From Mycolicibacterium goodii (GTDB lineage: Bacteria; Actinomycetota; Actinomycetes; Mycobacteriales; Mycobacteriaceae): a DNA stretch of 64,000 nucleotides. A program made the position numbers and the translations under genes. The DNA is taken from positions 1,736,001 through 1,800,000 of the forward strand of contig NZ_CP012150.1 in the NCBI RefSeq assembly GCF_001187505.1. Reading direction: 5' to 3'. The notes beneath the pieces are model-generated. The model was given only the letters and a program-made list of their open reading frames with translations, had not been told where the DNA came from and ran no database searches. Below are positions 37,897-64,000 of the stretch, in pieces. Positions within the stretch are counted from its first letter, which is position 1. Each line of letters starts with the position of its first letter.

Positions 37897-39132
37897 CTAC
37901 TTGGCCGCGGCCTGTTCGAGGAGGAACTGGCCGACGTAGGTTCGCGTCTGATCCGCATTGAGCGGCTGGAACATCGAGGCGGCCGAATCTCGATACAGCC
38001 GCTCGAAGATGGTGCCCTTACGGAAGGACGAGCCACCGATCATGCTCATCGCGTGCCGTGACATGTGCAGGACGTTGTCCGCGATGAAGGTCTTGGCCAA
38101 GCCGAGGTAGGGGAAGCGGAGCTCGGCCGGCCACTCCTTGTCCTTACCCTCGAGCAGATCCTCGCATGTCCGGTGCAGCACCCTTCGCGACCACTCCACC
38201 CGCGAGGCGAAGTCACCGATCCCGTCGACGATGTGCCCGACGTCCTTGACCGCGGTGTCGGCGGCCACGATCGCGCCGAAGGTGGCGCCGAGGTGCTTTT
38301 TGGCCAGCGTGTTGGTGGCCTCTTCGAGGATGCGCTGCTGCATGCCCAGATAGATGCTGGCGAACATCAGCGATGCCCACTCCAGGGTGCCGAACGCGCC
38401 GGTTCGCCAGTGCGAGATGAAGCCGTCCTCGGGCACGAAGTAGCCATCGAAGACGATCGTCTGGGTTCCCGTGGCATGCATACCGAGTGCGTCCCAGGTT
38501 TTTTCGATGCGGATACCGTCACCCACACCGTTCTCGTCGACATCGAAGTTGCCGATGAACAGCTTCTCCGCGGCCACCCGCTCCTCGAAGGTCTCGGGGA
38601 GGTTGCCGTCGGCGTCGGTCTCGGTGGCGTTCGTCGTGATGATGCTGGCGGCCTCGCACAGTGTGCCCCAGGTCTTTTTGCCGTAGAGCTTCCAGCCGCC
38701 GTCCGGCTGGGGCACGGCCTTCATGTCGGCCAGACCGGAGAAGCCTGCGCGCTGCTCGGAGAACGGACCGAAGATCAGTTCGCCGTCGACGACGCGGCCC
38801 ATCCAGTACTTGTTCTGCTCCTCCGACATCAGATTCCCGGCGATACCCAACATGATGTAGTGCATGTTGTAGGCCAGCGTGATCGCTGAATCGCCCCGAG
38901 AGAGTTCGGTGACCACTTTGGAGACGTGGAGGATGTTGCCGCCGGGCCCACCGAATGCCCTGGGAACCGGTAGTGCGCCGAGCCCGGATTTCCTGAACAC
39001 ATCGATCGACGGGTAGGCGAAAGTGTTCTCCGCGTCGTACTTGGGGCCGATTTCGCGGAAGAACTGCGACACTTCCTGCGCCTTGGCGAAGTACGGTTCG
39101 AATTCCTCGTCGGTCATGTCCTGTTCGAGCAT
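37897..39132 (-). CDS. acyl-CoA-dehydrogenase-fold flavoprotein (possible flavin-dependent monooxygenase)
   Basis: A 411-residue protein of the acyl-CoA dehydrogenase superfamily. The N-terminal helical domain with LGALPVPRAFGGPGG, the beta domain (FGPFSEQRAGFSG, then GKKTWGTLCEAASIITTN) and the C-terminal FAD-binding helices are present. The catalytic base of true dehydrogenases cannot be placed with confidence, and a flavin reductase is encoded in the divergent operon, so a two-component flavin monooxygenase (DszC-like group) is a real alternative. ATG 39132 has AGGAG 5 bases upstream; an in-frame GTG at 39138 overlaps that site. A strong terminator follows. Confidence 0.78.
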   Translation of the reverse strand: MLEQDMTDEEFEPYFAKAQEVSQFFREIGPKYDAENTFAYPSIDVFRKSGLGALPVPRAFGGPGGNILHVSKVVTELSRGDSAITLAYNMHYIMLGIAGNLMSEEQNKYWMGRVVDGELIFGPFSEQRAGFSGLADMKAVPQPDGGWKLYGKKTWGTLCEAASIITTNATETDADGNLPETFEERVAAEKLFIGNFDVDENGVGDGIRIEKTWDALGMHATGTQTIVFDGYFVPEDGFISHWRTGAFGTLEWASLMFASIYLGMQQRILEEATNTLAKKHLGATFGAIVAADTAVKDVGHIVDGIGDFASRVEWSRRVLHRTCEDLLEGKDKEWPAELRFPYLGLAKTFIADNVLHMSRHAMSMIGGSSFRKGTIFERLYRDSAASMFQPLNADQTRTYVGQFLLEQAAAK

Positions 39133-39395
39133 GGTCACTCCTGATCGCTATTGGTGTCCGGTCGTCCCCATGGTTTCTGAGCCCCACTGACCGCACACCT
39201 CTCCCCAGGGGGAACTAGCTCCGGCATCGGGGGAGATCACCCCCGGCGGCAGCGCTACAGGACCGGTGGGAGGTCGGGCCATGTCCCCCCTACGGGCAGG
39301 TGCTTTCCTCCCCCCGATAGTCGCCGGTACGGGGGCGTCATCCATAGCCTCGACAGCGTCCGACTTGCATTCCGACGCGAGGAGTTGAATTTCCG
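39133..39395. promoter_or_regulatory. divergent control region with CCCC/GGGG boxes
   Basis: This 263-bp gap separates the flavoprotein gene from the SnoaL-ligase operon. It is rich in paired C- and G-runs: CTCCCCAGGGGGAAC (about 39197-39211), CGGGGGAGATCACCCCCGG (about 39226-39244), TCCCCCCTACGGG (about 39283-39295) and TCCTCCCCCCGATAG (about 39305-39319). Similar boxes occur near 60400 and 61180-61215. They may be sites for the cluster's GAF-LuxR regulators. No coding sequence is seen. Confidence 0.4.
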
Positions 39396-39851
39396 ATGAG
39401 CCATTCGTTCGCGGTCAAATGGTTGAAAGCGTTTCGTACCAGCGCGGAGGCTGTGGTCGCCCTCTACGCCGACGACTTCCTTTTCGAAGACCCGATTCTT
39501 GCGCAGCGGATCACCTCGAAAGAGGAATTGCTGCGGGTATTCGCCCCGTACGCCAACAAAGACACCGAAAACGGGATAGGAATCAACAACTTCCGTATCG
39601 ACGAGGTGGTCGGTGACGAGAATGCCGCCATTTATCGGTGGACCTGGAATGCGCCCACCGCGACGGCCTTCGTCGGTGTCCCCACCAACGGCAGGGTCCC
39701 GGGCGCGCGTGGCCTGACCTTCCACATCTACGACACCGACGGCCGCATCAAACGGGAGGCGAGCTTCTGGGACGTCTCGACTGCCGTCCGCGACCTCGGT
39801 CTCCCCGTCGATCCCACCGCCGTGGCCAAGAAGTCGCCGGCACTGGTCTGA
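39396..39851 (+). CDS. SnoaL-like (NTF2-fold) protein, copy 1
   Basis: A 151-residue protein with the NTF2/SnoaL pattern: VVALYADDFLFEDPI near residue 22 and a C-terminal IYDTDGRIKREASFWD strand pair. SnoaL-like proteins act as cyclases, isomerases, hydrolases or binding proteins for small hydrophobic molecules. It is the first gene of the plus-strand operon and is followed 11 bp later by a diverged duplicate. Shared motifs VALYADD, APYANKD/APFANKD and FxGVPT show common origin. Its role in the pathway is unknown; isomerising or hydrating the oxygenase product is possible. Confidence 0.75.
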   Translation: MSHSFAVKWLKAFRTSAEAVVALYADDFLFEDPILAQRITSKEELLRVFAPYANKDTENGIGINNFRIDEVVGDENAAIYRWTWNAPTATAFVGVPTNGRVPGARGLTFHIYDTDGRIKREASFWDVSTAVRDLGLPVDPTAVAKKSPALV

Positions 39852-39862: not shown

Positions 39863-40375
39863 ATGAAGCTCGACACCTCGCAAGCCAAACAGCACGCCCA
39901 GCGGTGGGTGGATGCGCTGACCAGTGACACGGCAGCCGCAGTGGCGCTCTATGCCGACGACCTGGTGTACGACGATCACGGCGACTCCGATCACATGATC
40001 GACACTGCCATCACCAAGGCCGAGCTGGAACCGCGATTGGCGCCCTTTGCCAACAAGGATCCCGACACCGGCGAGGGTGTACATGATTTCGTGGCCACCG
40101 AGGCATTCCAGCTCGCCGGGGTGAACGGACAGCCGGCAGTCGTGATCCTGTGGGAGTGGACCGGGCGTGGGCTGGAAACGTTCCGCGGCGTGCCGACCGA
40201 GGGCAAAAACCTCACCACCAGGGGCATCACCTGGCACCAGTTGGACGCCGACGGCAAGATCGCGCGCGAGACCACGTACTGGAATGACACGCCGGTGTTG
40301 CAGGAACTCGGGCTGCCGATCGTCACCCCGCCGTACTGGGTCGAGGGCTTCGACCCGGCTTCGCTGACGGGATAG
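39863..40375 (+). CDS. SnoaL-like (NTF2-fold) protein, copy 2
   Basis: A 170-residue SnoaL-like protein, a diverged tandem paralogue of the preceding gene. It has VALYADDLVYDDHGDSDHM near residue 25, FRGVPTEGKNLTTRG in the middle and DADGKIARETTYWND near the end. The acidic-histidine cluster (DDHGDSDH), absent from copy 1, could bind metal or be catalytic. GGACT stands shortly before its ATG, and only 6 bp separate it from the ligase. Function is not assignable beyond the fold. Confidence 0.75.
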   Translation: MKLDTSQAKQHAQRWVDALTSDTAAAVALYADDLVYDDHGDSDHMIDTAITKAELEPRLAPFANKDPDTGEGVHDFVATEAFQLAGVNGQPAVVILWEWTGRGLETFRGVPTEGKNLTTRGITWHQLDADGKIARETTYWNDTPVLQELGLPIVTPPYWVEGFDPASLTG

Positions 40376-40381
40376 TCTCGC

Positions 40382-41989
40382 GTGGCCAACGATGGTATGT
40401 GGGGCGTGTTGCCTGATGTCCTCGATCGTGCGTGCGCCTATTACGGTGAGCGCACCGCGATCCTGGACGCGGCGACCGGCGTCGGTATCACCTATCGCGA
40501 ACTGGGCCGGTGGCGCAACCAAATTGCTCACGCGTTGATTGCCAGCGGGGTGCAGAAGGGCGAACGGGTGGGGCTGCTGATGCCCAACTGCCTGGAATTC
40601 ATCCCGATCCAGCAGGCGATCTGGACCGCCGGCGCGGTGCTGGTACAGATGCCGACTCGGGCCGCGGCCGACGGTTTCCGGTCCAACCTCGCCCAGACCG
40701 ACGCGACCACGCTGCTCTATCACGCGAAGTTCGAAGATGCCGTCGCCGCGATCCGCGGGGAACTGCCCAAGCTACAGACCCTGATCCGGGTCGGAACCGT
40801 CGACGGCGACGAAAAGGTCGAGGCGCTGGACTTCTCGGCTCTGGTGGCCGGGCGATCCACGGAGCGGCCACAGGTCGACATCGACGAGCACGACGAGGCG
40901 TACGTGCTGTTCACATCGGGAAGCACGGGTGAACCCAAAGGCGTTGTGAACTCCCACTTCACGTGGAGTTACTACAGCATCTCGGCGGGCCTGGAGATCG
41001 CTGACATCCGGTTCGGCGAGGTGTTCGCACATGGTGCACCGCTGACCCATTTCACCCAGATCTTCGTGATGCCGACGTTCGTCCGCGGCGGCACCAACGT
41101 GATGCTTCCGGGCCTGGAACCGGAATCGTTGCTCACCTTCATCGAGCGACACGGCGTCACCGCGGTCGCGCTGGTGCCCACCATCGTCTATCTGCTGCTC
41201 GATCACCCTCGTCGCGGCGAGTTCGACCTGAGCACGTTGCAGACCGTGGTCTACGCGGGATCCCCGATCACTCCAGAGCGGCTGCGCCAGGCGCTCGAAG
41301 CGTTCGGTCCGATCTTCATCCAGACCTACGCGGGCACCGAACCCGGTTACGTGGCCTGCTTACGCAAGCACGAGCACCTCCAACGCGACGGTGAATCCGT
41401 CGAGGACTGGACGGCGCGCCTTGCCGCCGCGGGCCGGCCGATGTTCCAGGTCCGGGTGAGCATCCAAGACGAAAACGACCGGATTCTGCCGGTCGGGGAG
41501 GTCGGCGAGATCTGTTCGCGTCAACTGGGGCAGATGCTGGGTTACCTCGATCCGTCCCGCAACGCCGAGACCCTGCGGGACGGCTGGGTGCACACGGGCG
41601 ACATCGGCCACCTCGACGACGAGGGATACCTCTACATCGTCGACCGTAAGAAAGACATGGTGGTCAGCGGCGGATTCAACGTGTTCCCGCGGCAGGTCGA
41701 GGATGTGCTGGCCACGCACACCGCGGTGGCTCAGGCTGCGGTGATCGGCGTTCCGCACGAGAAGTGGGGCGAGGCGGTGATGGCCGTCGTGGTGCCCCGC
41801 AGCGGTGAGATCACCGGGCCGGCGCTGGAATCCGAACTCATAGGGCATGTCAAGGCCGCACTGGGCAGTGTCGCCGCCCCCAAGACCGTCCTGTTCGTCG
41901 ACAGCCTCCCGCTGAACCCGGCAGGCAAGGTCGACAAGAAAGCCATCCGTAAACCGCACTGGCGCAATCGAACACGTCAGGTCGGCTGA
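40382..41989 (+). CDS. AMP-dependent acyl-CoA synthetase/ligase
   Basis: A 535-residue class I adenylate-forming enzyme. VLFTSGSTGEPKGVVNSH is the phosphate loop, TYAGTEPGYVAC the adenine motif, HTGDIGHLDDEGYLYIVDR the ribose motif and NPAGKVDKKAIR the catalytic lysine. The GTG start is 6 bp after the second SnoaL gene. It would convert a carboxylic acid, presumably the product of the aldehyde dehydrogenase next door, to its CoA thioester for the CoA-dependent steps encoded at 48-58 kb. Substrate size cannot be deduced. Confidence 0.88.
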   Translation: MANDGMWGVLPDVLDRACAYYGERTAILDAATGVGITYRELGRWRNQIAHALIASGVQKGERVGLLMPNCLEFIPIQQAIWTAGAVLVQMPTRAAADGFRSNLAQTDATTLLYHAKFEDAVAAIRGELPKLQTLIRVGTVDGDEKVEALDFSALVAGRSTERPQVDIDEHDEAYVLFTSGSTGEPKGVVNSHFTWSYYSISAGLEIADIRFGEVFAHGAPLTHFTQIFVMPTFVRGGTNVMLPGLEPESLLTFIERHGVTAVALVPTIVYLLLDHPRRGEFDLSTLQTVVYAGSPITPERLRQALEAFGPIFIQTYAGTEPGYVACLRKHEHLQRDGESVEDWTARLAAAGRPMFQVRVSIQDENDRILPVGEVGEICSRQLGQMLGYLDPSRNAETLRDGWVHTGDIGHLDDEGYLYIVDRKKDMVVSGGFNVFPRQVEDVLATHTAVAQAAVIGVPHEKWGEAVMAVVVPRSGEITGPALESELIGHVKAALGSVAAPKTVLFVDSLPLNPAGKVDKKAIRKPHWRNRTRQVG

Positions 41990-42005: not shown

Positions 42006-43508
42006 ATGACTGAGCACTACTCGATGTACATCGACGGCAAGTGGGTCGACACGGACGAGGTGTACGAGATCCGCAGCCCGGCAACCGAAGAACTGGTCGC
42101 CACGGTCGCCAAGGGCAACACCGAACTGGTCGACGCCGCCGTGGAGGCAGCCAAGGGGGCGTTCGCGGAGGGGACGTGGCGCCGGACACCGCCGGCCCAG
42201 CGGGCCGCGATCATCAACACCGTCGCCGAGCGGCTCGGTGCCCGGGCCGAGGAGCTCGCGGCCCTGCAGACACGGGAGAACGGGGCGACGATACGGATCA
42301 CCAGCGCTCTGCACGTGGGACTGTCGGTCGCCCAGATGCAGTACCTGGCGGCCATCGCACAGACCTACCAGTGGGAGACGCTCGGGCCGGCCATCGAACC
42401 CGTCGCGGCAGACGGTCTCGTCGTACGGGAACCGCTCGGTGTGGTCGCGGCGATCGTGCCGTGGAACATCCCGCTGCTCACCACGGTGTGGAAAATCGGT
42501 CCCGCCCTGGTGGCCGGCAACTCGGTGGTGCTCAAGCCCGACGAGCATGCGCCCCTGCTGGCACTGGAACTGGCGCGCGAATTCGACGCAGTCGGGCTGC
42601 CTCCCGGGGTGCTCAACGTGGTGACCGGCGACGGTGAACCGGTGGGTGCGCATCTGTCCGGGCATCCGGATGTGCGGAAGGTTGCGTTCACCGGATCGAC
42701 CGCGGTGGGCAAGAGCATCCTGCGTCAGTCGGCGGACACGGTGCGGCGGGTGACCCTGGAACTCGGCGGCAAGGGCGCGAACATCATCCTGGACGATGCC
42801 GACATCGACATGGCGATCGACGGTGCCCTGTTCGCGTGCATGGCCAACAACGGCGAGGCGTGTGAGGCGGGCACCCGTCTGCTCATCCCGGCCTCGCGGC
42901 GAGGCGAGATCGTGGACAAGCTACTGGCGCGGGCCTCGACGCTACGGGTCGGAGACCCACTGGACCCGGCCACCCATATCGGGCCGATCATCTCGGCGAC
43001 CCAGCGCGACCGGATCCTGAACTACTTCCGGATCGCGGCCGAGGAGGGCGCCACCGCCGCCCTCGGCGGAAAAGCCCCCTCGGGAGCGGAGTTCGACAAG
43101 GGCTACTGGATCGAGCCGACGATCTATCTCGATGTCACCAGCAACATGAGGATCGCCACGGAAGAGGTGTTCGGACCGGTGCTGGTTGTGATGACCTACG
43201 GCACCGACGAGGAGGCGCTCGCAATCGCCAACGACACGAATTACGGGCTCTCGGCTGGTGTCTGGGGCAGCGAAGAGCGCGCGACGGCGCTGGCGCGGCG
43301 ACTGGAGGCCGGCATGGTGTGGGTGAACAACTGGCACGTCATCCATCCGGCCTATCCCTTCGGTGGTTACAAGGAGAGCGGTCTGGGCCGTGAAGGAGGC
43401 CCGAACGCGATCGACGAGTACGTCGAGGAGAAGTTCATCTCCGTCGATCGGTCCGGCGGTATCGAGAACAAGGCGTTCGCCATCGTGATCGATCCTGCCC
43501 GGCACTGA
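42006..43508 (+). CDS. aldehyde dehydrogenase
   Basis: A 500-residue NAD(P)-dependent aldehyde dehydrogenase. PWNIPLLTTVWKIGPAL lies in the cofactor fold, LELGGKGANI holds the base, and NNGEACEAGTRLLI holds the catalytic cysteine in a somewhat unusual context (EACEAG rather than GQxC). EEVFGPVLVV and PFGGYKESGLGREGG complete the pattern. It follows the CoA ligase by 16 bp with an AGGACG-like ribosome site. Oxidation of an aldehyde to an acid followed by CoA activation is the natural reading of this gene pair. Confidence 0.88.
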   Translation: MTEHYSMYIDGKWVDTDEVYEIRSPATEELVATVAKGNTELVDAAVEAAKGAFAEGTWRRTPPAQRAAIINTVAERLGARAEELAALQTRENGATIRITSALHVGLSVAQMQYLAAIAQTYQWETLGPAIEPVAADGLVVREPLGVVAAIVPWNIPLLTTVWKIGPALVAGNSVVLKPDEHAPLLALELAREFDAVGLPPGVLNVVTGDGEPVGAHLSGHPDVRKVAFTGSTAVGKSILRQSADTVRRVTLELGGKGANIILDDADIDMAIDGALFACMANNGEACEAGTRLLIPASRRGEIVDKLLARASTLRVGDPLDPATHIGPIISATQRDRILNYFRIAAEEGATAALGGKAPSGAEFDKGYWIEPTIYLDVTSNMRIATEEVFGPVLVVMTYGTDEEALAIANDTNYGLSAGVWGSEERATALARRLEAGMVWVNNWHVIHPAYPFGGYKESGLGREGGPNAIDEYVEEKFISVDRSGGIENKAFAIVIDPARH

Positions 43509-43530: not shown

Positions 43531-43980
43531 ATGACGACGGCGACTGCAGCGTCCGACACATCGGGATCCGGGAACACACCGAGGCCGCGACTGCGCTTCG
43601 GTGTGGAATCCGGCAATACGTTGTGGACCAACGGATCCGATGACGTGCTCCGGATCAGGGCGGCGGACCTCCGGGATCTCGCGCACAAGGCGGCCGCGGC
43701 CCGCGAGGATGCGCCACATGCTGTGGTCGTCGTCGACATCGACGTACTGATCGCCCAGGACATCCGGACGGCCCGGGCGGCATTGAGCGATTCGGGTTAC
43801 GAGTGCGGCGACCGGATGGTGTACGTCGGTACCCCGGCCGGACTGGCCGGATTGGTCGCCGACATCCACGCCCTGGGCATCGCCGACGGCGCGGTTCTGG
43901 TGCCGTTGGGCGGCGACGGCGTTCTGCAGTTGATCCGCGACGTCGTGGTACCCGAATTGCACACGCTGGCGGGGGCGTGA
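43531..43980 (+). CDS. small protein resembling the C-terminal part of luciferase-like monooxygenases
   Basis: A 149-residue protein without a firm family. From about residue 65, the pattern [20 protein letters not shown], then [19 protein letters not shown] and IRDVVVPEL, resembles the last third of NtaA/SsuD-type luciferase-like monooxygenases. The TIM barrel with flavin and active-site residues is absent. It overlaps the start of the flavin reductase (TGATG), so the two are coupled. It may be a remnant kept as a partner of the reductase, or a separate domain now acting alone. Function unknown. Confidence 0.6.
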
Positions 43981-44471
43981 TGGTCAGCGCTGAGCAGTAT
44001 CGCGCGGCACTTCGGCGTCATCCCGCCGGTGTGGCCATCGTGACCTTGATGTCGACAGATGGGCCCGTGGGTTTCACCGCAACCTCGTTCGTCTCGTTGT
44101 CCCTGAATCCTCCGTTGATCTCGTTCAACATCACAGAGACCTCGTCGAGCATCGAGGCGATGCGTGCGGCCACATCGGTTGTCGTTCACCTACCAGGTGT
44201 CGAGCAATTCGAACTGGCACAACGATTTTCACGCTCCGCTGAGCACCGGTTCGCGGATCCCTCACTATGGGACCTGCTACCCACGGGTGAACCGGTGCTC
44301 CACGGGGTGCCGACGTGGTTGCGGGCCGGCGTCGAGCGTCTCATCGACGCCGGTGACTCCACGTTGGTCATCGGCGCGGTTGCGCAGATCCATTGTGCGG
44401 ATCCAGTCGTGTGCCCTGAACCGTTGCTGTACCACAACGGTGCCTACCTGCGTACGCAATCGCTCGGTTGA
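43980..44471 (+). CDS. flavin reductase (HpaC-like)
   Basis: A 163-residue FMN-binding split-barrel reductase. The signature [20 protein letters not shown] followed by [16 protein letters not shown] is that of NAD(P)H:flavin reductases of two-component monooxygenases. It provides free reduced flavin to a partner oxygenase; the acyl-CoA-dehydrogenase-fold protein at 37897-39132 is the most likely partner in this cluster. ATG 43980 overlaps the stop of the small luciferase-like gene. It ends immediately before the convergent GAF-LuxR gene, with no bases between the two stops. Confidence 0.85.
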
Positions 44472-45662
44472 TCACCCGCCCTGCAGGGCCCATGCGATCG
44501 CCTGGGCGCGGTTGACCGCGCCGTACTTGCGGAGGATGTGCTTGACGTGTGATTTGACGGTGCCCTCGGTGATCACCAGCTGCTCGGCGATCTCATGGTT
44601 GCTCGCCCCGGTCACCATGAGCCGCAACACCTCCGACTCGCGTTCGGTCAGCTCGACCCGATGTGGTGGGCGCGCGCCGGCGGGGGCGTCCTGGTCATCT
44701 TCGGTCGGCCGGTTGTCATCGGCCCAGGTGGCCAACGCGACACTCGTATCGCACAGGTCGTCGATCTGGTCGACGGTGCCGGCGAGCAGGTCTCTGATGT
44801 GGTCGCGCTGTCGGCGCAGGTTCTCCATGAGAGCGGCGCGTTGGTAGATGTGGCTGAACCCATCGGCGAACGCCCACAACACATCCCGGTCGGCTTCGTC
44901 CACCCGGGTGTTCTCCGGGTAGTGGTCGGTGTGCAGGAACCCTATGACGTCGCTGCCCTGCACGAGTGGTGCGACCACATACGAGCGGGACTGGCCCGCC
45001 TGCACGATCAATGGGCGATACACCGGCGCGTCGGTGGTGTCCTGGATCAGGCAGGGTTGGCGCCGCGACAGTGACAACGCTTCGGGGGTGGCATGCATCA
45101 GAGGCACCGTCTGGTTCTGCCAGTTGCTGAACCAGGACCGCTCGGCGGGTTCGGTCCGATCCATCAGGATCATCGGTTTCCACCCGCCGGCATCCACCGT
45201 TGAAAGGACGGCACGGCGGAAACCGAGCCGGAAAACCAACTCGTGACAGGCGTTGTCGATGAGAGCCGCCGTGGTCGGCATGGCGCGCAGCCTGTTGAGG
45301 CTGATCGCGCAGTCGGCCAGGCGCTGGCTGCGCACACCGGTCTCGAACAGGTACCAATCCAGGGCCAGCTGCTGCAGTTGTAGCAGCAGGGTGCTCAGGC
45401 GGTGTTCGGCTTCGCGATCCGAACTGCGCACGGCCTGCAGTCGGCGAACGCACAGCCGAGAGAAGTCCGATATGACCTCGCCTATCCGGATCGGCGATGA
45501 GGGTTCGAGTTCGGCCGGTTGCTCGGTTCCGAGGACTGCGGCGGCCCGCACGCGCAGTGCCGCGAAGCGTTCGTCGAACTCCGCTTGTTTCGACATCCAG
45601 TCCGAGCGGGCCTTTCCGGTGCCGGTGGCGCGGGAGGACTCGGCGCCGATGAGGACGCTCAT
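44472..45662 (-). CDS. GAF-domain LuxR-family regulator 1
   Basis: A 396-residue regulator with a GAF-like sensor region (about residues 140-280: LGFRRAVLSTVDAGGWKP, VVAPLVQGSDVIGFLHTDH) and a C-terminal LuxR HTH (LTERESEVLRLMVTGASNHE, then TEGTVKSHVKHILRKYGAVN). It overlaps the upstream paralogue by 4 bp. GAF-LuxR proteins of this type are activators of catabolic operons in actinobacteria and usually sense a substrate or metabolite directly. It lies between the two halves of the catabolic region and probably controls both. Confidence 0.86.
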   Translation of the reverse strand: MSVLIGAESSRATGTGKARSDWMSKQAEFDERFAALRVRAAAVLGTEQPAELEPSSPIRIGEVISDFSRLCVRRLQAVRSSDREAEHRLSTLLLQLQQLALDWYLFETGVRSQRLADCAISLNRLRAMPTTAALIDNACHELVFRLGFRRAVLSTVDAGGWKPMILMDRTEPAERSWFSNWQNQTVPLMHATPEALSLSRRQPCLIQDTTDAPVYRPLIVQAGQSRSYVVAPLVQGSDVIGFLHTDHYPENTRVDEADRDVLWAFADGFSHIYQRAALMENLRRQRDHIRDLLAGTVDQIDDLCDTSVALATWADDNRPTEDDQDAPAGARPPHRVELTERESEVLRLMVTGASNHEIAEQLVITEGTVKSHVKHILRKYGAVNRAQAIAWALQGG

Positions 45663-46821: not shown

Positions 46822-46888
46822 TTTTTCTCTTGAAGCGGTATCGGCCCGGCTCTTGGCGGCGGTTGTGTTGACAACGACGATCCGGCAC

Positions 46889-46908: not shown

Positions 46909-46929
46909 ACTTCAGAAGTGAGGGACGAG

Positions 46930-47956: not shown

Positions 47957-47966
47957 CCGACGCGCT

Positions 47967-47986: not shown

Positions 47987-48003
47987 ACGACATAAGGACA
48001 TCG

Positions 48004-56070: not shown

Positions 56071-57099
56071 GTGAAGTTCGGTCTGCAGCTCGGATACTGG
56101 GCCACGCAGCCGCCGACCAACCATGCGGAGTTGGTGGCCGCGGCCGAGGAGGCCGGTTTCGACACGGTGTTCACCGCCGAGGCGTGGGGTTCGGATGCGT
56201 TCACGCCGTTGGCGTGGTGGGGGCGTGAGACGACGCGGCTGCGGCTGGGCACGTCGGTGGTGCAACTGTCGGCGCGTACCCCCACGGCGTGCGCGATGGC
56301 GTCGCTGACCCTGGACCACCTCTCGGGTGGCCGGCACATCCTGGGGCTGGGGGTGTCCGGGCCGCAGGTGGTGGAGGGCTGGTACGGGCAGCGTTTCCCC
56401 AAGCCGCTGGCCCGCACCCGCGAGTACATCGACGTGATCCGGCAGGTGTGGGCCCGCCAGGCGCCGGTGAGCAGCGGCGGGCCGCACTACCCGCTGCCGC
56501 TGACCGGTGCGGGCACCACCGGGCTGGGCAAGGCGCTCAAGCCCATCACCCATCCGCTGCGCGCGGACATCCCGATCATGCTGGGTGCCGAGGGGCCCAA
56601 GAACGTGGCGTTGGCCGCGGAGATCTGCGACGGCTGGCTGCCGATCTTCTACACACCGCGCATGGCCGACACCTACAACGCGTGGCTCGACGAGGGTTTC
56701 GCGCGGCCCGGTGCGCGTCGCACCCGCGAGACCTTCGAGATCTGCGCGACCGCCAACATCGTCATCACCGAGGACCGGGCCGCGGCGTTCGCGGCGATGA
56801 AGCCCTATCTGGCGCTGTACATGGGCGGTATGGGCGCCGAGGACACCAACTTCCACGCCGATGTCTACCGCCGCATGGGCTATGGCGAGGTCGTCGACGA
56901 CGTCACCAGGCTGCTGCGCGGCCATGGGAGAGAGGAAGCGGCACAGGCGATTCCCGATGAGGTGGTCGACGACGCGGCGATCGTGGGCGACGTCTCCTAC
57001 GTGCGCGAGCAGATCAAGGTGTGGGAGGCCGCAGGCGTCACCACCATGGTCGTCAATGCCCGCAGTCCCCAACACATCCACCAACTGGCTTTTCTGTGA
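56071..57099 (+). CDS. luciferase-like F420-dependent oxidoreductase 1 (TIGR03559/Rv3520c type)
   Basis: A 342-residue LLM-fold enzyme. KFGLQLGYWATQPP opens the barrel and FTAEAWGSDAFTPLAWWGRE, LDHLSGGRHILGLGVSGPQV and PIMLGAEGPKNVALAAEICD carry the cofactor-binding signature of mycobacterial F420-linked members. These enzymes transfer hydride between F420 and an alcohol, ketone or enoyl substrate. GTG 56071 starts one base after the preceding TGA. In the cluster it could replace a nicotinamide-dependent alcohol dehydrogenase or enoyl reductase. Confidence 0.85.
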   Translation: MKFGLQLGYWATQPPTNHAELVAAAEEAGFDTVFTAEAWGSDAFTPLAWWGRETTRLRLGTSVVQLSARTPTACAMASLTLDHLSGGRHILGLGVSGPQVVEGWYGQRFPKPLARTREYIDVIRQVWARQAPVSSGGPHYPLPLTGAGTTGLGKALKPITHPLRADIPIMLGAEGPKNVALAAEICDGWLPIFYTPRMADTYNAWLDEGFARPGARRTRETFEICATANIVITEDRAAAFAAMKPYLALYMGGMGAEDTNFHADVYRRMGYGEVVDDVTRLLRGHGREEAAQAIPDEVVDDAAIVGDVSYVREQIKVWEAAGVTTMVVNARSPQHIHQLAFL

Positions 57100-57108: not shown

Positions 57109-57861
57109 ATGCTGGAGATCTCCGACCGCAACCGGGTCCGCACCATCACCCTGGCGCGCCACGATGCGCTCAACGCGTTCGACGAGTCGCTCTACGACGC
57201 CACCGCGATCGCCCTGAGGGACGCCGCCACCGACAGCGATGTCGCGGTGGTGGTGCTCACCGGGTCCGGCCGGGCCTTCTGTGCCGGAACCGATCTCAAG
57301 GAACTGCACGCCAGGGCGACGAAGAACGGCTTCGTTCCGGGGGAGTACGGCTTCAACGGGCTGATGGATGTTCTCGCCGAGTTCCCCAAACCGTTGATCT
57401 GCGCGGTCAACGGTGTCGGGCTGGGCATCGGCACGACCATCCTGGGGTTCGCCGACCTGGCGTTCATGTCCACCACAGCCCGGTTGAAGTGTCCGTTCAC
57501 CAGCCTGGGGCTGGCACCGGAGGCTGCATCGTCGTATCTGCTGCCGGCCCTGGTGGGCCGGCCGAACGCGGCCTGGATCCTGATGTCCTCGGAGTGGATC
57601 GACGCCCAGCAGGCACTCGACATGGGCCTGGTGTGGCGGCTGTGTGAGCCCGACCAGCTCGACGACGAAGTGCGGCGGCACGCGGAACTGGTTGCCAAGC
57701 ACCCGATCTCGAGCTTGGTCGCCGTGAAACGGACCCTCACGGCACCGCACATCGAGGCGGTGCGCGCCGCGTTGGCCCGAGAGGACGCCTATCTCGATGA
57801 GCTGCTGGGGGCACCGGCGAGCATGGCGGCACTGGCGCGGTTCGTCGGCAAGCGCGACTAG
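57109..57861 (+). CDS. enoyl-CoA hydratase/isomerase family protein 2
   Basis: A 250-residue crotonase. FCAGTDLKELHARATKN supplies the first oxyanion half and VNGVGLGIGTTILGFADLAF the second; the conserved glutamate region LGLAPEAASSYLLPALVG fits enoyl-CoA hydratases/isomerases (LAPE-S motif). It has AAGGACG upstream. As the last gene of the long plus-strand run, it is followed by an unusual TTAA-rich non-coding stretch, so the operon probably ends here. It may act on the CoA ester after chain shortening. Confidence 0.86.
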   Translation: MLEISDRNRVRTITLARHDALNAFDESLYDATAIALRDAATDSDVAVVVLTGSGRAFCAGTDLKELHARATKNGFVPGEYGFNGLMDVLAEFPKPLICAVNGVGLGIGTTILGFADLAFMSTTARLKCPFTSLGLAPEAASSYLLPALVGRPNAAWILMSSEWIDAQQALDMGLVWRLCEPDQLDDEVRRHAELVAKHPISSLVAVKRTLTAPHIEAVRAALAREDAYLDELLGAPASMAALARFVGKRD

Positions 57862-58400: not shown

Positions 58401-59447
58401 CTAGCCCCGTGCGGCGGCGGCGCGCGCACCGGCGACGATCGCCGCCGCCGTATCGTCGCTCAGCGGATACGGCGTGAGCAATGTGAAACGGTCGACCAGT
58501 CCGCCGAATCGGATGGCCACCTCGGCCCCGGCCTCGGTCGGATCTCCCACGACGGCAAAGGTGTTGAGCACCTCGTCGTCGATCAGGGCGCTCATCGTCG
58601 CCCACTCCCCGGCCTTGGACAGCCGGTGTAGTTCGGTGTGCAGGTCGTGCCATCCGTGTAGTTCGAGGACGTGACGGTAGGCCGGTGTGGACCCGTAGAA
58701 CGCGATCTGGCGCCGGACGGCGTGGACGGCCCGGGCCATCTCCTCATCGGTGCTCCCGGAGGCGATCAGGCCCGGATAGGAGACGGTGAACTCGGCACGG
58801 CTGCGGCCGGCCTGCCGCAACTCGACGGCGATGACCGGTTGGGTGACTTCACTGAGGTAACGCTGCGTGGTGAAACCGTGCACCAGCAGGCCGTCGGCTA
58901 CACGGGCCGCGACGCGGGTCATCTTGGGCCCGACCGCCGAGATCACGATCTTGGGTTCGCCGTGAGGATGCGGAGCCGGGGTGAACATCGGGGTCATGAG
59001 CGTGTGCTGGTAGTAGTCTCCCCGGAAATCGAGACGCTCACCGGTCCGCCACGACCTCCAGATCGCCCGGACGGCATCGACATACTCCGACATCCGTTCG
59101 GCGGGGGCCGACCACGGCATCGAGAACCGGCGCTCGATGTGTGCCTGTATCTGGGTGCCGAGCCCGAGCACGAACCGCCCGCCGCTCATCTCCTGAAGAT
59201 CGTTGGCCGCCATGGCTGTCGTCATGGGGCTGCGGGCGAATGCCACGGCGATGCCGGTGCCCAGCTGGACAGTGGTGGTGGTCATCGCCGCCACCGCCAG
59301 CGGCAGAAACGGATCCCTGTCCACATCGGTGGACCAGATGCCGTCGAAGCCGATGTCCTGGGCGCGTGCAGCCTGGCCGACGACGGCGGTGATGCCGGTG
59401 TCGTCGGCGCCCGAGACCGCGCCCCCGATGTTGCAGTCGATGTGCAC
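58401..59447 (-). CDS. luciferase-like F420-dependent oxidoreductase 2 (TIGR03617 type)
   Basis: A 348-residue LLM enzyme. FDGIWSTDVDRDPFLPLAVA, LQEMSGGRFVLGLGTQIQAH and RRFSMPWSAPAERMSEYVDA are characteristic of the mycobacterial TIGR03617 group, believed to use F420. It starts with GTG 59447, 9 bp after the stop of the upstream membrane-protein gene, so the two form a minus-strand operon. It shares only the fold with the plus-strand enzyme at 56071-57099. A second F420-linked redox step in one cluster suggests several hydride transfers on the substrate. Confidence 0.85.
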   Translation of the reverse strand: MHIDCNIGGAVSGADDTGITAVVGQAARAQDIGFDGIWSTDVDRDPFLPLAVAAMTTTTVQLGTGIAVAFARSPMTTAMAANDLQEMSGGRFVLGLGTQIQAHIERRFSMPWSAPAERMSEYVDAVRAIWRSWRTGERLDFRGDYYQHTLMTPMFTPAPHPHGEPKIVISAVGPKMTRVAARVADGLLVHGFTTQRYLSEVTQPVIAVELRQAGRSRAEFTVSYPGLIASGSTDEEMARAVHAVRRQIAFYGSTPAYRHVLELHGWHDLHTELHRLSKAGEWATMSALIDDEVLNTFAVVGDPTEAGAEVAIRFGGLVDRFTLLTPYPLSDDTAAAIVAGARAAAARG

Positions 59448-59456: not shown

Positions 59457-60305
59457 TCAGCCGGCGAGCTGAGCCTCTGGCGGCGCGGTGCGCTCGGATG
59501 CCGGAGTGCCGTTGTCCGGCAGCCTCTTCGGAAGAAAGAAGGCGGCGAGCCCGCAGATGGTAACCGCGCACAGGGCGATCGAAGCGAGTGTCGAGGCGAA
59601 GATCAGTGGTGTGGACGCCAGCCCGTTGTCGAGATGCATCCCGATGATGACGGGGTAGCCCAGACCGAAATTGGCACCGAAGAACGTCACCGGGAAGAGC
59701 ACGAACAGGCCCAGCAACTCCCACCACCGGGATGCGCGGCGCCAGACGAGTACCGCGGTCACGGTGAAGAGCACCACCTGCGTGCCCTCCAGGACTCCGA
59801 TGACAAGCGGATAGTTCCAGACCCGGAGAACGTGCGGGCCGTAGTAGGTGTAGACATCCGTTCCGGTGCCGATGACCTCGAAGATGCACGACGTGACGAT
59901 CTCCAGTCCCCACAGGGCGAACAGGCCCTTTCGGTTGAACCGTCCTTCGTAGATGGGCCGTCCGGCGTACAGGCATGCGCCGGCATACAGGATGATGTAG
60001 CCGCTGTGGGTCCAGTTCGGTTGGGGAATCCCGAAGGCGGAGAAGTGCATCAGTCCGGCGCCGGGTTGACCGTTTTGTGCGTCGTAGAACCACAGATCGA
60101 ACGCGACGTCGTACAGGGGTTCGGCGTAGGCGCCGACACCGGCGGCCGCCACCGCGAAGAGATAGAACGGTGTGCGTTGCCTGCGGCCGAGGCGAATCGC
60201 GATGACGACCAACACCAGCGTGATGGCCCAGCTCGCGACGGTGAAGATGTTCTGCCACATGAGGCTGACGTCGTGCGTCATCACCTCGGAGGTCATCCGG
60301 CCCAT
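59457..60305 (-). CDS. multi-pass membrane protein (possibly AveC-like)
   Basis: A 282-residue protein with about seven hydrophobic helices; the first is IFTVASWAITLVLVVIAIRL and the last IALCAVTICGLAAFFL. Between them are conserved-looking polar loops (YAEPLYDVAFDLWFYDAQNG and FGIPQPNWTHSGYIILYAGA). The pattern resembles actinobacterial proteins annotated as AveC-like, but I cannot confirm this. ATG 60305 has AAGGAG 7 bases upstream; longer upstream frames are not supported. It is co-transcribed with the F420 enzyme and may be a membrane enzyme acting on the same hydrophobic substrate. Confidence 0.7.
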   Translation of the reverse strand: MGRMTSEVMTHDVSLMWQNIFTVASWAITLVLVVIAIRLGRRQRTPFYLFAVAAAGVGAYAEPLYDVAFDLWFYDAQNGQPGAGLMHFSAFGIPQPNWTHSGYIILYAGACLYAGRPIYEGRFNRKGLFALWGLEIVTSCIFEVIGTGTDVYTYYGPHVLRVWNYPLVIGVLEGTQVVLFTVTAVLVWRRASRWWELLGLFVLFPVTFFGANFGLGYPVIIGMHLDNGLASTPLIFASTLASIALCAVTICGLAAFFLPKRLPDNGTPASERTAPPEAQLAG

Positions 60306-60426: not shown

Positions 60427-61065
60427 TTATGGGGTGCGACGGCGTGCGGTGAGAATGCTGCGTGCGGAATCGGCGAGAAGTACCCTGAGCCGGTCGTCGG
60501 CGAGACCGGTGTTGTGGAACAGGGGTGACTGAATGGCGCCGATGGCGGCATGCACGATGACCCGAGCCTCGGTGTCGTCCAGGTCCTCGCGCAGTTCGTT
60601 CACGAGATGGACCCATTCCTCGAGGTACAGCCGCTGTTTGCGGCGGAGCCTCCGGCGGTCCTCCTCCGGGAGGTTGTTGATCTCGTTGTGGTAGACCTGC
60701 GCAAGCTGACGGTCACCGACCACGAACTCGACCTGGCCCTCGATCAACTCCTCCAGTGCTTTTGACAGTTCGTCGGTCTCGTCGAGGATGCGCGCTTCCT
60801 CGACGATGAGATCGTCGATCACCTGGTCGAACAAAGCGACCAGGATGGCGGACTTGCTGTCGAAATGGCGGTAGACGCCGGACCCGGTGATGCCGGCGGC
60901 GTTTCCGATGTCAGCTATCGAAACCGCGTGAAAACCCTTGCGGCCGATCAGTTCAGAGGCCGCCTGCAGAATCCGGTTTTTGCGGTCGGGATCGCGGGTT
61001 CTGGTCTTGGCGGTGTCTGGGGGCAGGTCGACGGGGATGAGCAGACCTCCTAAGTGTATGTCCAC
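60427..61065 (-). CDS. TetR-family transcriptional regulator
   Basis: A 212-residue TetR protein. The HTH is in the N-terminal third (ASELIGRKGFHAVSIADIGN then AAGITGSGVYRHFDSK), and the C-terminal helices (about 85-205) form the ligand domain, here of the KstR2/FadR-like fatty-acyl-sensing size. GTG 61065 is the longest plausible start; a strong AGGAGG inside the first codons hints that translation may begin later. It is divergent from the mce operon; operator C lies between them and a TAAGTG-CACTTA palindrome covers its own start. A role as repressor of mce and of the carboxylase operon is inferred. Confidence 0.85.
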   Translation of the reverse strand: MDIHLGGLLIPVDLPPDTAKTRTRDPDRKNRILQAASELIGRKGFHAVSIADIGNAAGITGSGVYRHFDSKSAILVALFDQVIDDLIVEEARILDETDELSKALEELIEGQVEFVVGDRQLAQVYHNEINNLPEEDRRRLRRKQRLYLEEWVHLVNELREDLDDTEARVIVHAAIGAIQSPLFHNTGLADDRLRVLLADSARSILTARRRTP

Positions 61066-61068: not shown

Positions 61069-61106
61069 TTATTCAGCGCGGTCGGGCTGGGTGTATCTCG
61101 CAGTGT

Positions 61107-61126
61107 AAGTGAATCTTAAATTACTA
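61107..61126. promoter_or_regulatory. inverted-repeat operator, site C
   Basis: AAGTGAATCTTAAATTACTA pairs imperfectly (5 of 8 arm positions) but has the same half-sites and spacing as sites A and B. It lies 42 bp upstream of tetR and 123 bp upstream of the small ORF before yrbE, where repression of both directions is possible. Confidence 0.55.
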
Positions 61127-61236
61127 ACTCGATAATTACGCGTTTCGCCGCCGCGCGCATCCGGAGGCGAGGTTGTGCCCCTGGAGGGGGACCCATCTCC
61201 CCCCGCGAGGAGGGGAAACGGCCGTGATCTGTGCCA

Positions 61237-61248: not shown

Positions 61249-61362
61249 GTGTTCTTCAACGAGGGGTTCCTGCCGATGCGGTTCGCGTACGCCGGACGGC
61301 AAAGCGGTGGCGTGGCCGGTGGCCGAGAGCACACCATGCCGACGTATCGGGGTGCACCGTGA
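61249..61362 (+). CDS. 37-residue leader ORF upstream of yrbE
   Basis: A short ORF starting with GTG (VFFNEGFLPMRFAYAGRQSG...) and ending in TGA that overlaps the GTG start of the first yrbE gene by 4 bp. There is no ribosome site before it, but its GTG sits at the predicted transcription start of TACATT, as in leaderless mycobacterial messages. Translation of this ORF could therefore deliver ribosomes to yrbE. It has no recognisable family, and its codon pattern alone does not prove translation. Confidence 0.4.
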   Translation: MFFNEGFLPMRFAYAGRQSGGVAGGREHTMPTYRGAP

Positions 61363-62129
61363 TCGCGCTGGGACCGGCGGCCAAGCCGGTGGGTGCACTC
61401 GGCGGTTTCTTCGCGATGACGCTCGATGTCTTCGTGACGATCGCCCGACCGCCGTTCGCGTGGCGCGAGTATCTGGACCAGACCTGGTTTGTCGCCCGGG
61501 TGTCGCTCGTACCGGCCCTGATGTTGACGGTTCCCTATACCGTGCTGCTGGTCTTCACCTTCAACATCCTCCTGATCGAGTTCGGCGCCGCCGACTTCTC
61601 CGGCACCGGCGCGGCGATCGGCACGGTGAGCCAGATCGGACCGATCGTGACGGTGCTGGTCGTGGCCGGTGCCGGCTCGACAGCGATGTGTGCTGACCTG
61701 GGCGCCAGGACGATTCGTGAGGAACTCGACGCCATGCGGGTGATGGGTATCGATCCCATCCAGGCGCTCGTGGTGCCGCGGGTGCTGGCGGCGACGACCG
61801 TTGCACTCGCATTGTCGGCGACGGTCATCATGGTCGGGTTGGCCGGTGGCTTCACGTTCGCGGTCTTCATCCAGCACGTGCCTCCGGGCTCGTTCGTGGC
61901 CGGTCTGACCGTCCTGACGCATGGGGCCGACGTCGCAGTGGCATTGGCCAAAGCCGCGTTGTTCGGCCTGTCGGCCGGGCTGATCGCCTGTTATAAGGGC
62001 ATTTCGGTTGGGGGCGGCCCGGCCGGTGTCGGCAACGCGGTCAACGAGACGGTCGTGTTCACCTTCATGGCACTGTTCGCGATCAACGTCATCGCCACGG
62101 CGGTCGGTGTGAAGATCACGGTGGTGTGA
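61359..62129 (+). CDS. yrbEA: YrbE-family permease subunit A of an Mce transporter
   Basis: A 256-residue MlaE/YrbE integral membrane protein with about five to six helices. The coupling motif is EELDAMRVMGIDPIQALVVP, and the C-terminal half has the conserved ISVGGGPAGVGNAVNETVV loop. YrbE pairs form the permease of Mce systems that import lipids or sterols, driven by an MceG-type ATPase encoded elsewhere. The GTG at 61359 overlaps the small upstream ORF by 4 bp. Length is normal with this start; the longer frame back to 61173 is not supported. Confidence 0.9.
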   Translation: MIALGPAAKPVGALGGFFAMTLDVFVTIARPPFAWREYLDQTWFVARVSLVPALMLTVPYTVLLVFTFNILLIEFGAADFSGTGAAIGTVSQIGPIVTVLVVAGAGSTAMCADLGARTIREELDAMRVMGIDPIQALVVPRVLAATTVALALSATVIMVGLAGGFTFAVFIQHVPPGSFVAGLTVLTHGADVAVALAKAALFGLSAGLIACYKGISVGGGPAGVGNAVNETVVFTFMALFAINVIATAVGVKITVV

Positions 62130-62130
62130 C

Positions 62131-62991
62131 GTGGTCGCGATGAGTTCTGTCGTGCAGCAGCGATTCCCAAGGTTGAGCAACCGTCTCGATCGAATTCGAG
62201 CGGCCTGGAACGGAATCGGCGTCCAGACCCAATTCTATGCGCGGGCCATCGGATCGATCGGCGACGCCGCGATGAACTACCGCACCGAACTCATCCGACT
62301 GATCGCGACGATGGGGCTCGGTGCCGGAGCGCTGGCGGTCGTCGGCGGTACGGTCGCCATCGTCGGGTTTCTGACCATGACCACCGGAGCCCTGGTCGCG
62401 GTCCAGGGCTACAACCAGTTCGCCTCCGTCGGTGTTGAGGCGCTCACCGGTTTCGCCTCGGCGTTCTTCAACGTCCGGCTCATCGCGCCGGGAACCACCG
62501 CGGTCGCGCTGTCGGCGACCATCGGCGCCGGTGCGACCGCTCAGTTGGGAGCCATGCGCATCAACGAGGAGATCGACGCATTGGAGGTCATCGGTATCCG
62601 CAGCGTCAGCTATCTGGCATCGACCAGGGTCGCCGCGGGGGTGATCGTCGTGATCCCGTTGTACTGCGTCGCGGTGATCATGTCCTTCATCTCATCGCGC
62701 CTGGGTACCACGGTGATATACGGGCAAGGGTCCGGTGTGTACGACCACTACTTCAACACGTTCCTCAACACCGACGACCTGTTGTGGTCGTTCGGCCAGT
62801 CCGTGGCTATCACCGTCGTGATCATGCTGGTCCACACCTACTACGGGTACACCGCCTCGGGCGGTCCCGCGGGCGTGGGTGAGGCGGTCGGACGCGCCGT
62901 GCGGACCTCGTTGATCGTGGCCGCCATCGTCGTGGTGATGATCTCGCTCGCGTTGTACGGCCAGTCCGGCAATTTCCACCTGGCGGGGTGA
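62131..62991 (+). CDS. yrbEB: YrbE-family permease subunit B of an Mce transporter
   Basis: A 286-residue MlaE/YrbE protein, partner of the preceding gene. It has an amphipathic N-terminal segment, the motif NEEIDALEVIGIRSVSYLAS and the C-terminal TASGGPAGVGEAVGRAVRTS. The start is GTG 62131, one base after the upstream stop, or ATG 62140. The two YrbE subunits and the following Mce protein are in the canonical order of mycobacterial mce operons. Substrate specificity is set by the Mce proteins and cannot be read here. Confidence 0.9.
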   Translation: MVAMSSVVQQRFPRLSNRLDRIRAAWNGIGVQTQFYARAIGSIGDAAMNYRTELIRLIATMGLGAGALAVVGGTVAIVGFLTMTTGALVAVQGYNQFASVGVEALTGFASAFFNVRLIAPGTTAVALSATIGAGATAQLGAMRINEEIDALEVIGIRSVSYLASTRVAAGVIVVIPLYCVAVIMSFISSRLGTTVIYGQGSGVYDHYFNTFLNTDDLLWSFGQSVAITVVIMLVHTYYGYTASGGPAGVGEAVGRAVRTSLIVAAIVVVMISLALYGQSGNFHLAG

Positions 62992-62994
62992 GTC

Positions 62995-64000
62995 GTGCAA
63001 CCAAAATTCAGGGAAAGTCGGATCAAGCCGGCGTGGTGGACTTTGATCCTCATCGCGGCTCTCGGTGTTTTCTTCCTCACGACGGGTTCGCTGTTCGCGG
63101 GAACCTTCCGCGAGTTCGTGCCGGTGACACTGGTGGCCGATCGCTCGGGCCTGGTGATGGAGACCGGAGCGAAGGTGAAACTCAACGGCGTCGAGGTGGG
63201 CCGCGTCAGCGAGATCCGCGGCGGTGCCTCGGGGGCGAGCATGCAATTGGAGATAGAACCCGATCAAGTCCGGTACATCCCGGCCAACGTCGAGGCGAGG
63301 ATCACTGCGACAACGGCATTCGGCGCGAAGTACGTCGACCTGAGCTACCCGGACAAGCCGGCAGGTGAGCGGCTGGCCGCCGGTGCGGTGCTGCATTCAC
63401 GCAACGTCAGCACCGAGGTGAACACGGTGTTCGAGAACCTCACCGACGTCCTGAGGATGGTCGACCCCGCCAAGCTCAACGCCGTCATCTCGGCCCTTGC
63501 CGAGGGATTGCGCGGCCAGGGGGAGAGCATGGGGCAGGCCATCACCGACGCGAATCAGGTTCTGGCGGAAATCAATCCGCGACAAGACGTCATCCGGGAG
63601 GACTGGCGTGCCATGGGCGACGTCAGTGCCGCATACGACCGCGCGGCCGACGACATCGTGAAGATTCTCGACGCAGGCACCACCGCGGCTGAGACGATCA
63701 CCTCCCACCGGTCCGAACTCGACACGCTGCTGCTCAACGTGATCGGCTTCGGCAGGGCAGGTGTCGATCTGCTGGCCCCCAACTCTGCGAACCTCGTGAA
63801 TGCGGTCAATGGCTTCGCGCCCACCTCGGATCTGCTGATGAAGTACCAGCCTGAGTACACCTGTCTGCTCGACGGATCGGTCTCCCTGCTGCAGAACGGT
63901 CACGTCGACGCGTTCGGCGCCAACGGCCGCACGGCGATCTTCGACATCGGGCTTCTGCTCGGCAACGATCCGTACCACTACCCGGACAACCTGCCGATCG
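62995..64000 (+). CDS. Mce-family protein (MceA position), truncated by the window end
   Basis: The GTG lies 3 bp after the yrbEB stop and the frame is open to the window end (335 codons). An N-terminal signal anchor (about residues 12-34, WWTLILIAALGVFFLTTGSL) is followed by the MlaD/Mce domain (VPVTLVADRSGLVMETGAKV, then LNGVEVGRVSEIRGG) and the helical Mce4_CUP1-like region from about residue 130. It is the first Mce protein of the operon and is exported to the periplasm, where Mce proteins form a lipid-conducting tunnel. The remaining mceB-F genes are expected beyond the window. Confidence 0.9.
   Translation, partial: MQPKFRESRIKPAWWTLILIAALGVFFLTTGSLFAGTFREFVPVTLVADRSGLVMETGAKVKLNGVEVGRVSEIRGGASGASMQLEIEPDQVRYIPANVEARITATTAFGAKYVDLSYPDKPAGERLAAGAVLHSRNVSTEVNTVFENLTDVLRMVDPAKLNAVISALAEGLRGQGESMGQAITDANQVLAEINPRQDVIREDWRAMGDVSAAYDRAADDIVKILDAGTTAAETITSHRSELDTLLLNVIGFGRAGVDLLAPNSANLVNAVNGFAPTSDLLMKYQPEYTCLLDGSVSLLQNGHVDAFGANGRTAIFDIGLLLGNDPYHYPDNLPI

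Follow-up and report, generated by a model that had tools for sequence, protein, structure and literature searches.

A conserved actinobacterial gene island best read as Atu-type catabolism with another upper pathway and a linked mce operon

The window analysed here is a stretch of 64,000 nucleotides from the 7.1-Mb single-contig genome of Mycolicibacterium goodii (G000:C1:1736001-1800000; positions below are window positions), and the subject is an island around a gene for AtuA, a DUF1446 protein (Table 1). All genes that a preliminary description had named from the DNA alone are present, each backed by curated matches in Pfam, supplemented by NCBIfam. On the upstream side these are an ACAD-fold flavoprotein, a FadD-type CoA ligase, an aldehyde dehydrogenase and a flavoprotein of the nitronate monooxygenase (NMO) type, and downstream a TetR gene, yrbEA, yrbEB and the start of mceA. 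The Mce importer set is complete, with two YrbE permeases and six Mce proteins, the last genes lying past the window end (mceF at window-equivalent 70.7 kb). Beyond the genes listed previously, Pfam identified two genes for SnoaL/NTF2-fold proteins and one for a flavin reductase, and a GAF-LuxR regulator pair and a second F420-type oxidoreductase are also part of the island set. For AtuA, the two hydratases and both carboxylase subunits, no NCBIfam family scored above threshold.

To place the island in context, we used a sample of 26 AtuA clusters, including the window, with an AtuA identity of at least 66%, extended by about 28-30 kb in both directions as far as the contigs reached; five further loci at this identity level (L003, L005, L016, L019 and L045) were taken only to 10-kb flanks. 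The nearest named AtuA relatives were from M. peregrinum and M. porcinum (84% identity). The 14 clusters of the Mycobacterium type, one of which is from an Actinomycetota metagenome-assembled genome, keep the order hyp43-LuxR-LuxR-nmo-accD-accA-ech1-mdmpi-atuA, except that three of them have no listed ech1. An upper module consisting of acad37 and both NTF2 genes was present in 20 of the 26 clusters (14/14 of the Mycobacterium type, 4/5 from Nocardia, Rhodococcus koreensis and Gordonia polyisoprenivorans); 17 of these, the window among them, also have the flavin reductase. The six clusters without this module were that of N. elegans, where the contig starts within the stretch, and five core-only clusters from Rhodococcus and Gordonia. 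Identities in 19 of the 25 other clusters were 73-87% for acad37 and 74-92% for NTF2 protein 1. The TetR protein was 57-84% identical in clusters where it occurs with the upper module, and relatives of 63-71% identity lie next to distant AtuA clusters (L028, L030-L034). R. koreensis has the main parts in a different order, together with mce, TetR and the upper module. In many clusters tetR and llm58 are accompanied by the conserved membrane-type protein x59, a second relative of which lies past the mce operon in R. koreensis.

An mce operon was located within about 30 kb of 14 of the 26 clusters (10/14 in Mycobacterium, 2/5 in Nocardia, 1/3 in Rhodococcus and 1/4 in Gordonia), and linkage was seen in 13 of 20 where the upper module was present and in 1 of 6 where it was not. 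Of the four mycobacterial clusters with no mce operon in this range, three (G067, G138 and G139) have a contig that ends within a flank; G128 does not. In the multi-contig genome G018, mceB lies about 18 kb from the AtuA cluster. As a control, in genomes with a single main contig, a listed mceB gene was sought up to 30 kb away from AtuA loci and was found at 0 of 28 core paralogues (nearest 155 kb), 2 of 2 window-type loci and 1 of 6 loci in the 59-66% identity class. The mceB table was filtered by E-value and length so that distant mce types are uncounted, rows from 11 genomes with no listed mceB on that contig were dropped, and the counts were compiled by hand. A second AtuA cluster, of the 60% type, is located about 23 kb from an mceB gene in G039 (C1:5960001-6000000; L107, L092).

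We also inferred a tree from the YrbEA-YrbEB sequences of 59 operons, leaving out the linked operon of G126. Eight of the nine mycobacterial linked operons, including that of the window, formed one clade (support 0.997) together with one unlinked operon from G039, while the ninth, which in G018 sits at the opposite end of its cluster, fell outside this clade. The linked operons of Nocardia and Rhodococcus formed a second clade (0.997), and that of Gordonia belongs to a distant mce type.

Sites of 22 bp near TTAGTKWATNNNNATTCACTAA were identified before nmo and in the gap between tetR and yrbEA. A symmetrised matrix built from 11 other mycobacterial nmo sites, two of them from close kin and with the window's own site excluded, finds three sites above 8 bits in the window, at 46888 (34.4 bits), 61106 (30.5 bits) and 47966 (28.1 bits), the last of which lies 16 bases ahead of the corrected accD start. 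The same matrix gave 5 matches above 8 bits in 245 kb of other loci, the best at 13.4 bits, and 1 above 8 and none above 12 bits in 1.28 Mb of Markov copies. A pattern search allowing 3 mismatches, less independent than the matrix since the pattern was derived from the window's own sites, matched the window 3 times, where 0.01 matches were expected, and the entire genome 5 times, with 0 matches in the control. The genome match at 5667066 is inside a called open reading frame (ORF), and no window-type gene was found close to the match at 2369529.

The site before nmo scored at least 24 bits in all 14 Mycobacterium clusters (ten of which supplied training sites) and in all 5 from Nocardia (none in training), and the site before accD, which was never used in training, scored at least 18 bits in 13/14 and 5/5, respectively. 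Before the mce operon the site is clear in the window (30 bits), M. peregrinum (26 bits) and M. porcinum (26 bits); in Gordonia an 18-bit site precedes the LuxR pair ahead of the mce operon, and in G126 the yrbEA promoter lay outside the stretch read for the scan. With a one-direction matrix, the gap between tetR and mce had scored 10-11 bits in G039, G123, G127 and G137; only G127 and G137 remained above 8 bits with the symmetrised matrix. Judged from these motifs, the operator of the island also stands before the mce operon, a clear case in the window's clade and a tentative one in R. koreensis. We consider TetR a likelier reader of the operator than the LuxR pair, since clusters without a listed LuxR pair (R. 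kyotonense and Leaf278) have sites between a TetR gene and accD. The coupling of the catabolic cluster to an mce operon, as previously proposed, is supported by synteny in four genera and by the operator that the two share in the window's clade.

According to Jurado et al. (PMC4673880), methylcrotonyl-CoA carboxylases (MCC) have a Phe with a 3-residue insertion ahead of it, while geranyl-CoA carboxylases (GCC) have Gly and no insertion. The window beta subunit has no 3-residue insertion before the Phe191 position, as in the Pseudomonas GCC pocket, and it shares with its close orthologues an Ala at this position; Gly is found in PaGCC and in core AccD2-type proteins (L081, L097-L099). Of 60 other beta sequences from AtuA loci, 59 had no insertion (exception L037) and 59 had Ala or Gly (exception L096, with Thr). 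The alignment was cleared of near-duplicates (L006, L083, L084 and L104) and of weak or short matches, although several near-identical rows remain. The beta subunit of L037, from Myxococcota and located beside AtuA, has an insertion of the MCC type but Ala at the Phe position.

In the carboxylase tree, the window subunit belongs to a clade of 54 members, weakly supported at its base (0.358), which is the sister of the PaGCC clade with a joint support of 0.978. The window subunit itself is outside the latter, where PaGCC groups with L077-L080 and L100. L100 is a mycobacterial AtuA locus (G046, same genus; AtuA 34%) with its beta subunit within the PaGCC clade. An AccD1-type protein from the window's own genome (CT at 3592k) has the MCC signature and pairs with AccD1 of Mycobacterium tuberculosis (support 1.0). 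A placement as MCC by raw best match was dropped in favour of this tree, which includes the genome's own MCC and propionyl-CoA carboxylase-type proteins and supersedes a first tree that was rooted on MCC and could not reveal the grouping. The beta subunit thus has neither the Phe nor the insertion and groups neither with MCC nor with the leucine- or propionyl-pathway carboxylases, and the preliminary designation as a GCC-like carboxylase holds by selectivity site and tree, in the sense of a sister to the GCC clade rather than a member of it.

The AtuA protein belongs by Pfam to the same family as AtuA of the Atu pathway. Its model matches the citramalate lyase subunit CmlA over the full subunit (PDB 9erq, 9evf) at 19% identity to CmlA/CmlB, and we predict it to be a citramalate-lyase-type lyase. 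A literature search predating the fold result found no paper on AtuA as a lyase. Such an activity would give AtuA (DUF1446) a function at a step credited so far to LiuE (PMC4097962). Of the 118 genomes of the genus, 115 have an AtuA match of E 1e-50 or better; in most of them the top match is of a core type with 50-55% identity. The window's own genome contains such a core paralogue cluster at 2802001-2822000 (L081), presumably the accD2-accA2 cluster from its layout. Like the island, it has AtuA, beta and alpha subunits, acyl-CoA dehydrogenases and a crotonase, with the same selectivity-site type (no insertion), here with Gly. It differs in that the upper module was not seen in the 20 kb read, and in that none of the 28 core loci lies near a listed mceB. 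The role of the mycobacterial AccD2-AccA2 carboxylase is described as an open question in PMC4347857. A natural guess would be that its substrate is a larger beta-branched enoyl-CoA, because the presumed homologue in this genome has Gly, no insertion and an adjoining AtuA gene. A third AtuA gene (L082; G000:C1:4140304-4142052; 49%) had no carboxylase match within the 20 kb read, and in G022 and G100 (L093, L094) an AtuA gene appears split into two adjacent pieces in different frames.

The solved relatives of acad37 found by sequence are ACAD-fold flavoproteins, including the DszC type. The two NTF2 proteins are paralogues (34% identity). For NTF2 protein 2, the best match to a solved structure by sequence had an E-value of 0.012, and the fold matches were tied between SnoaL2, epoxide hydrolases (the MonBI-MonBII complex) and ketosteroid isomerase, with no function singled out; among the 120 of 157 relatives listed, identities were 72-100%, and those with a name were ketosteroid-isomerase-like or NTF2. 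No short-chain (alcohol) dehydrogenase of the AtuB/AtuG type was seen among the island proteins scanned with Pfam. The conserved combination of flavoprotein, flavin reductase, two NTF2 proteins, aldehyde dehydrogenase and CoA ligase points to a starting compound other than those of the Atu pathway.

The island is best read as a conserved actinobacterial unit in which Atu-type catabolism is combined with an mce operon and an upper pathway of another kind. On balance, the roughly twenty genes probably form an inducible island for the uptake and degradation of a hydrophobic isoprenoid. From the gene content, synteny, shared operator, carboxylase placement and AtuA fold computed here, we infer the reactions, the role of TetR and the nature of the transported compound as follows. 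The Mce system would carry the compound across the envelope, and the ACAD-fold flavoprotein would oxygenate it together with the flavin reductase. The paired NTF2-fold proteins may open or rearrange an epoxide product to an aldehyde, which aldehyde dehydrogenase and FadD would convert to an acid and then to a CoA ester. Shortening by beta-oxidation would halt at a beta-methyl (beta-branched) 2-enoyl-CoA, whose methyl group could be carboxylated by the GCC-like enzyme; hydratase 1 would then add water, and AtuA would cleave the 3-hydroxy-3-alkylglutaryl-CoA to acetate and a 3-oxoacyl-CoA. A TetR repressor acting on one 22-bp operator would couple the mce operon to the nmo-accD operon, which, if true, gives an Mce system a defined catabolic partner.

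Several observations weigh against this reading. The mce operon was absent from the covered stretch in 12 of 26 clusters, partly due to contig ends, and in G067 the closest listed mceB gene on the same contig is about 85 kb away. The linked mce operons span at least three lineages, which indicates repeated recruitment or replacement of the mce partner. No site above 8 bits was found before seven linked mce operons (G039, G018, G125, G123, G130, N. elegans and N. jiangxiensis), the site in G137 reaches just 9 bits, and those in G127 (16 bits) and R. koreensis (14 bits) exceed the best background match of 13.4 bits by a small margin, which slightly lowered our confidence. Moreover, 4 of the 5 background matches fall in stretches with unlinked mce operons. 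The raw score of the beta subunit is higher for MCC (569 bits) than for GCC (466 bits), AtuA and CmlA resemble each other weakly in sequence (E 0.0021), the listings of 3 of the 14 Mycobacterium-type clusters (G018, G126 and G138) contain no ech1, and neither a thiolase nor a hydroxyacyl-CoA dehydrogenase was seen among the island genes.

Which isoprenoid is degraded can be narrowed down only tentatively. Mce systems carry large lipids, and a larger substrate, such as a rubber oligomer, squalene, a resin or a steroid side chain, would best fit the importer; a cluster lies beside an mce operon in G. polyisoprenivorans. This seems less likely than not: no P450 or other ring-degradation enzymes were seen among the scanned island proteins, the latex-clearing-protein family not having been searched by name. 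Mce uptake has been proposed in rubber degradation, where import is likewise tied to isoprenoid catabolism but the catabolic genes are others (Lcp, OxiAB) and no shared operator is described in the passage concerned (PMC8235351). The preliminary description knew of no account of a combination such as this one. In our searches on terpene and isoprenoid catabolism, carboxylases, mycobacteria and Mce, no paper joined Atu genes with Mce, but the idea of Mce uptake in isoprenoid catabolism is not wholly new, having been put forward for isoprenoid oligomers in the text just cited.

A special form of the favoured reading, an alpha-pinene-type pathway, seems unlikely. The oxygenase would yield alpha-pinene oxide, the NTF2 pair would serve as the lyase giving isonovalal or novalal, and aldehyde dehydrogenase and FadD would produce novalyl-CoA; one round of beta-oxidation would lead to 3,4-dimethylpentenoyl-CoA, requiring the gamma-carboxylase and AtuA. 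The alpha-pinene oxide lyase of Nocardia is composed of two dissimilar subunits of about 17 and 22 kDa and that of P. rhodesiae belongs to the NTF2 superfamily, which resembles the paralogous 16.7- and 18.6-kDa proteins beside FadD and aldehyde dehydrogenase. No alcohol dehydrogenase turned up in the island proteins scanned; the MonBI-MonBII epoxide hydrolase is among the tied fold matches. Reviews place the lyase route in Nocardia P18.3 and in Pseudomonas/Sphingobium strains, with an oxygenase that was never identified (PMC7794910, PMC4097962). However, NTF2 folds occur in enzymes of many kinds, uptake of a volatile C10 hydrocarbon might well proceed with no Mce importer, and the steps after novalal are taken from general chemistry. 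It is doubtful that mycobacteria and their relatives have here a full system for the uptake and degradation of a cyclic monoterpene such as alpha-pinene, with a two-component flavin oxygenase, a heteromeric NTF2 epoxide lyase, a gamma-carboxylase suited to a beta-branched enoyl-CoA, an acetate-releasing AtuA lyase of the citramalate-lyase fold and Mce under the same TetR operator.

The preliminary description had likened the island to the acyclic-terpene (citronellol/geraniol) pathway of Pseudomonas, with an Mce importer in addition. AtuA, a GCC-like carboxylase pair, a hydratase, an acyl-CoA dehydrogenase and a CoA ligase are indeed shared with atuABCDEFGH, and the beta subunit is sister to the GCC clade. 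An identity of the two is nevertheless not supported and appears improbable, as the selectivity site has Ala instead of Gly, no AtuB/AtuG-type dehydrogenase was seen among the scanned proteins, and the pathway as described has no step for an oxygenase, a flavin reductase or an NTF2 pair, all of them conserved here; the F420-type enzymes and the Mce operon are further additions.

That the mce operon is a mere neighbour is rather unlikely. These operons are abundant, with five six-gene copies in the window's own genome and more in others, so that some will lie near any island, and the 12 clusters without mce and the three mce lineages agree with chance proximity. Against this stand the orthology of the linked operons in mycobacteria, the absence of linkage at all 28 control loci and the operator in common, which is distinct in the window and in M. 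peregrinum and M. porcinum but less so in G127 and R. koreensis. Finally, a spare leucine-pathway carboxylase is very improbable: the best single solved relative by sequence is an MCC beta subunit, but the genome has a separate AccD1-type protein with the MCC signature, and the window subunit lacks both Phe and insertion.

Table 1. Features of the island, with window positions.
Feature	Position	Strand	Evidence
ACAD-fold flavoprotein acad37 (candidate oxygenase, two-component flavin monooxygenase)	37897..39138	-	Pfam
SnoaL/NTF2-fold protein 1, 151 aa, 16.7 kDa	39396..39851	+	Pfam SnoaL_2 6.7e-10
SnoaL/NTF2-fold protein 2, 170 aa, 18.6 kDa	39863..40375	+	Pfam; paralogy; model and fold comparison
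Acyl-CoA ligase (FadD-type)	40382..41989	+	Pfam 1.1e-71
Aldehyde dehydrogenase	42006..43508	+	Pfam 1.4e-162
Conserved protein hyp43	43531..43980	+	no Pfam match over cut-off; present in many clusters
Flavin reductase	43980..44471	+	Pfam PF01613 1.8e-30
GAF-LuxR regulator	44472..45662	-	Pfam
GAF-LuxR regulator	45659..46738	-	Pfam
Operator 1, before nmo	46888..46909	.	34.4 bits, window's own site kept out of training
Nitronate-monooxygenase/FabK-type flavoprotein (nmo)	46918..47889	+	Pfam NMO 5.2e-28
Operator 2, just before corrected accD start	47966..47987	.	28.1 bits
Carboxyltransferase beta subunit accD (AtuC/GCC-like)	48004..49602	+	Pfam Carboxyl_trans 4.3e-133; selectivity site; tree
Biotin carboxylase alpha subunit accA, BT (BT_MCC_alpha) and BCCP domains (AtuF-like)	49599..51617	+	Pfam
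Enoyl-CoA hydratase ech1 (AtuE-like)	51614..52372	+	Pfam ECH 5.6e-52
TIGR03084 DinB/MDMPI metal-binding protein (mdmpi)	52357..53163	+	331 bits, cut-off 248
AtuA with C-terminal AtuA_ferredoxin; predicted citramalate-lyase-type lyase	53160..54917	+	Pfam 1.5e-168; fold
Acyl-CoA dehydrogenase (AtuD-like position)	54933..56069	+	Pfam
LLM F420-dependent oxidoreductase, Rv3520c subfamily (ORF opens 56032)	56071..57099	+	TIGR03559 489 bits, cut-off 335
Enoyl-CoA hydratase/isomerase 2	57109..57861	+	Pfam
LLM F420-dependent oxidoreductase llm58, MSMEG_2256 subfamily	58401..59447	-	TIGR03617 516 bits, cut-off 278
Conserved membrane-type protein x59	59457..60302	-	no Pfam match; syntenic
TetR regulator (SACE_7040-like), candidate operator reader	60427..61065	-	Pfam TetR_N 3.1e-15
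Operator 3, tetR-mce intergenic	61106..61127	.	30.5 bits
YrbEA, MlaE-type permease (ORF opens 61173)	61359..62129	+	Pfam 8.2e-54
YrbEB permease	62131..62991	+	Pfam 4.9e-53
MceA, first 1006 bases; operon continues beyond window to mceF	62995..64000	+	

Two start positions in the table differ from those of the ORFs. The accD gene probably starts at 48004 rather than 47947, since many orthologues are 532 aa long and a Met is residue 20 of the ORF, and the start of yrbEA was placed near 61359, where it would agree with the 256 aa of the M. peregrinum orthologue. A gene for a large LuxR-type regulator of 810 aa adjoins the island at 34923-37355.

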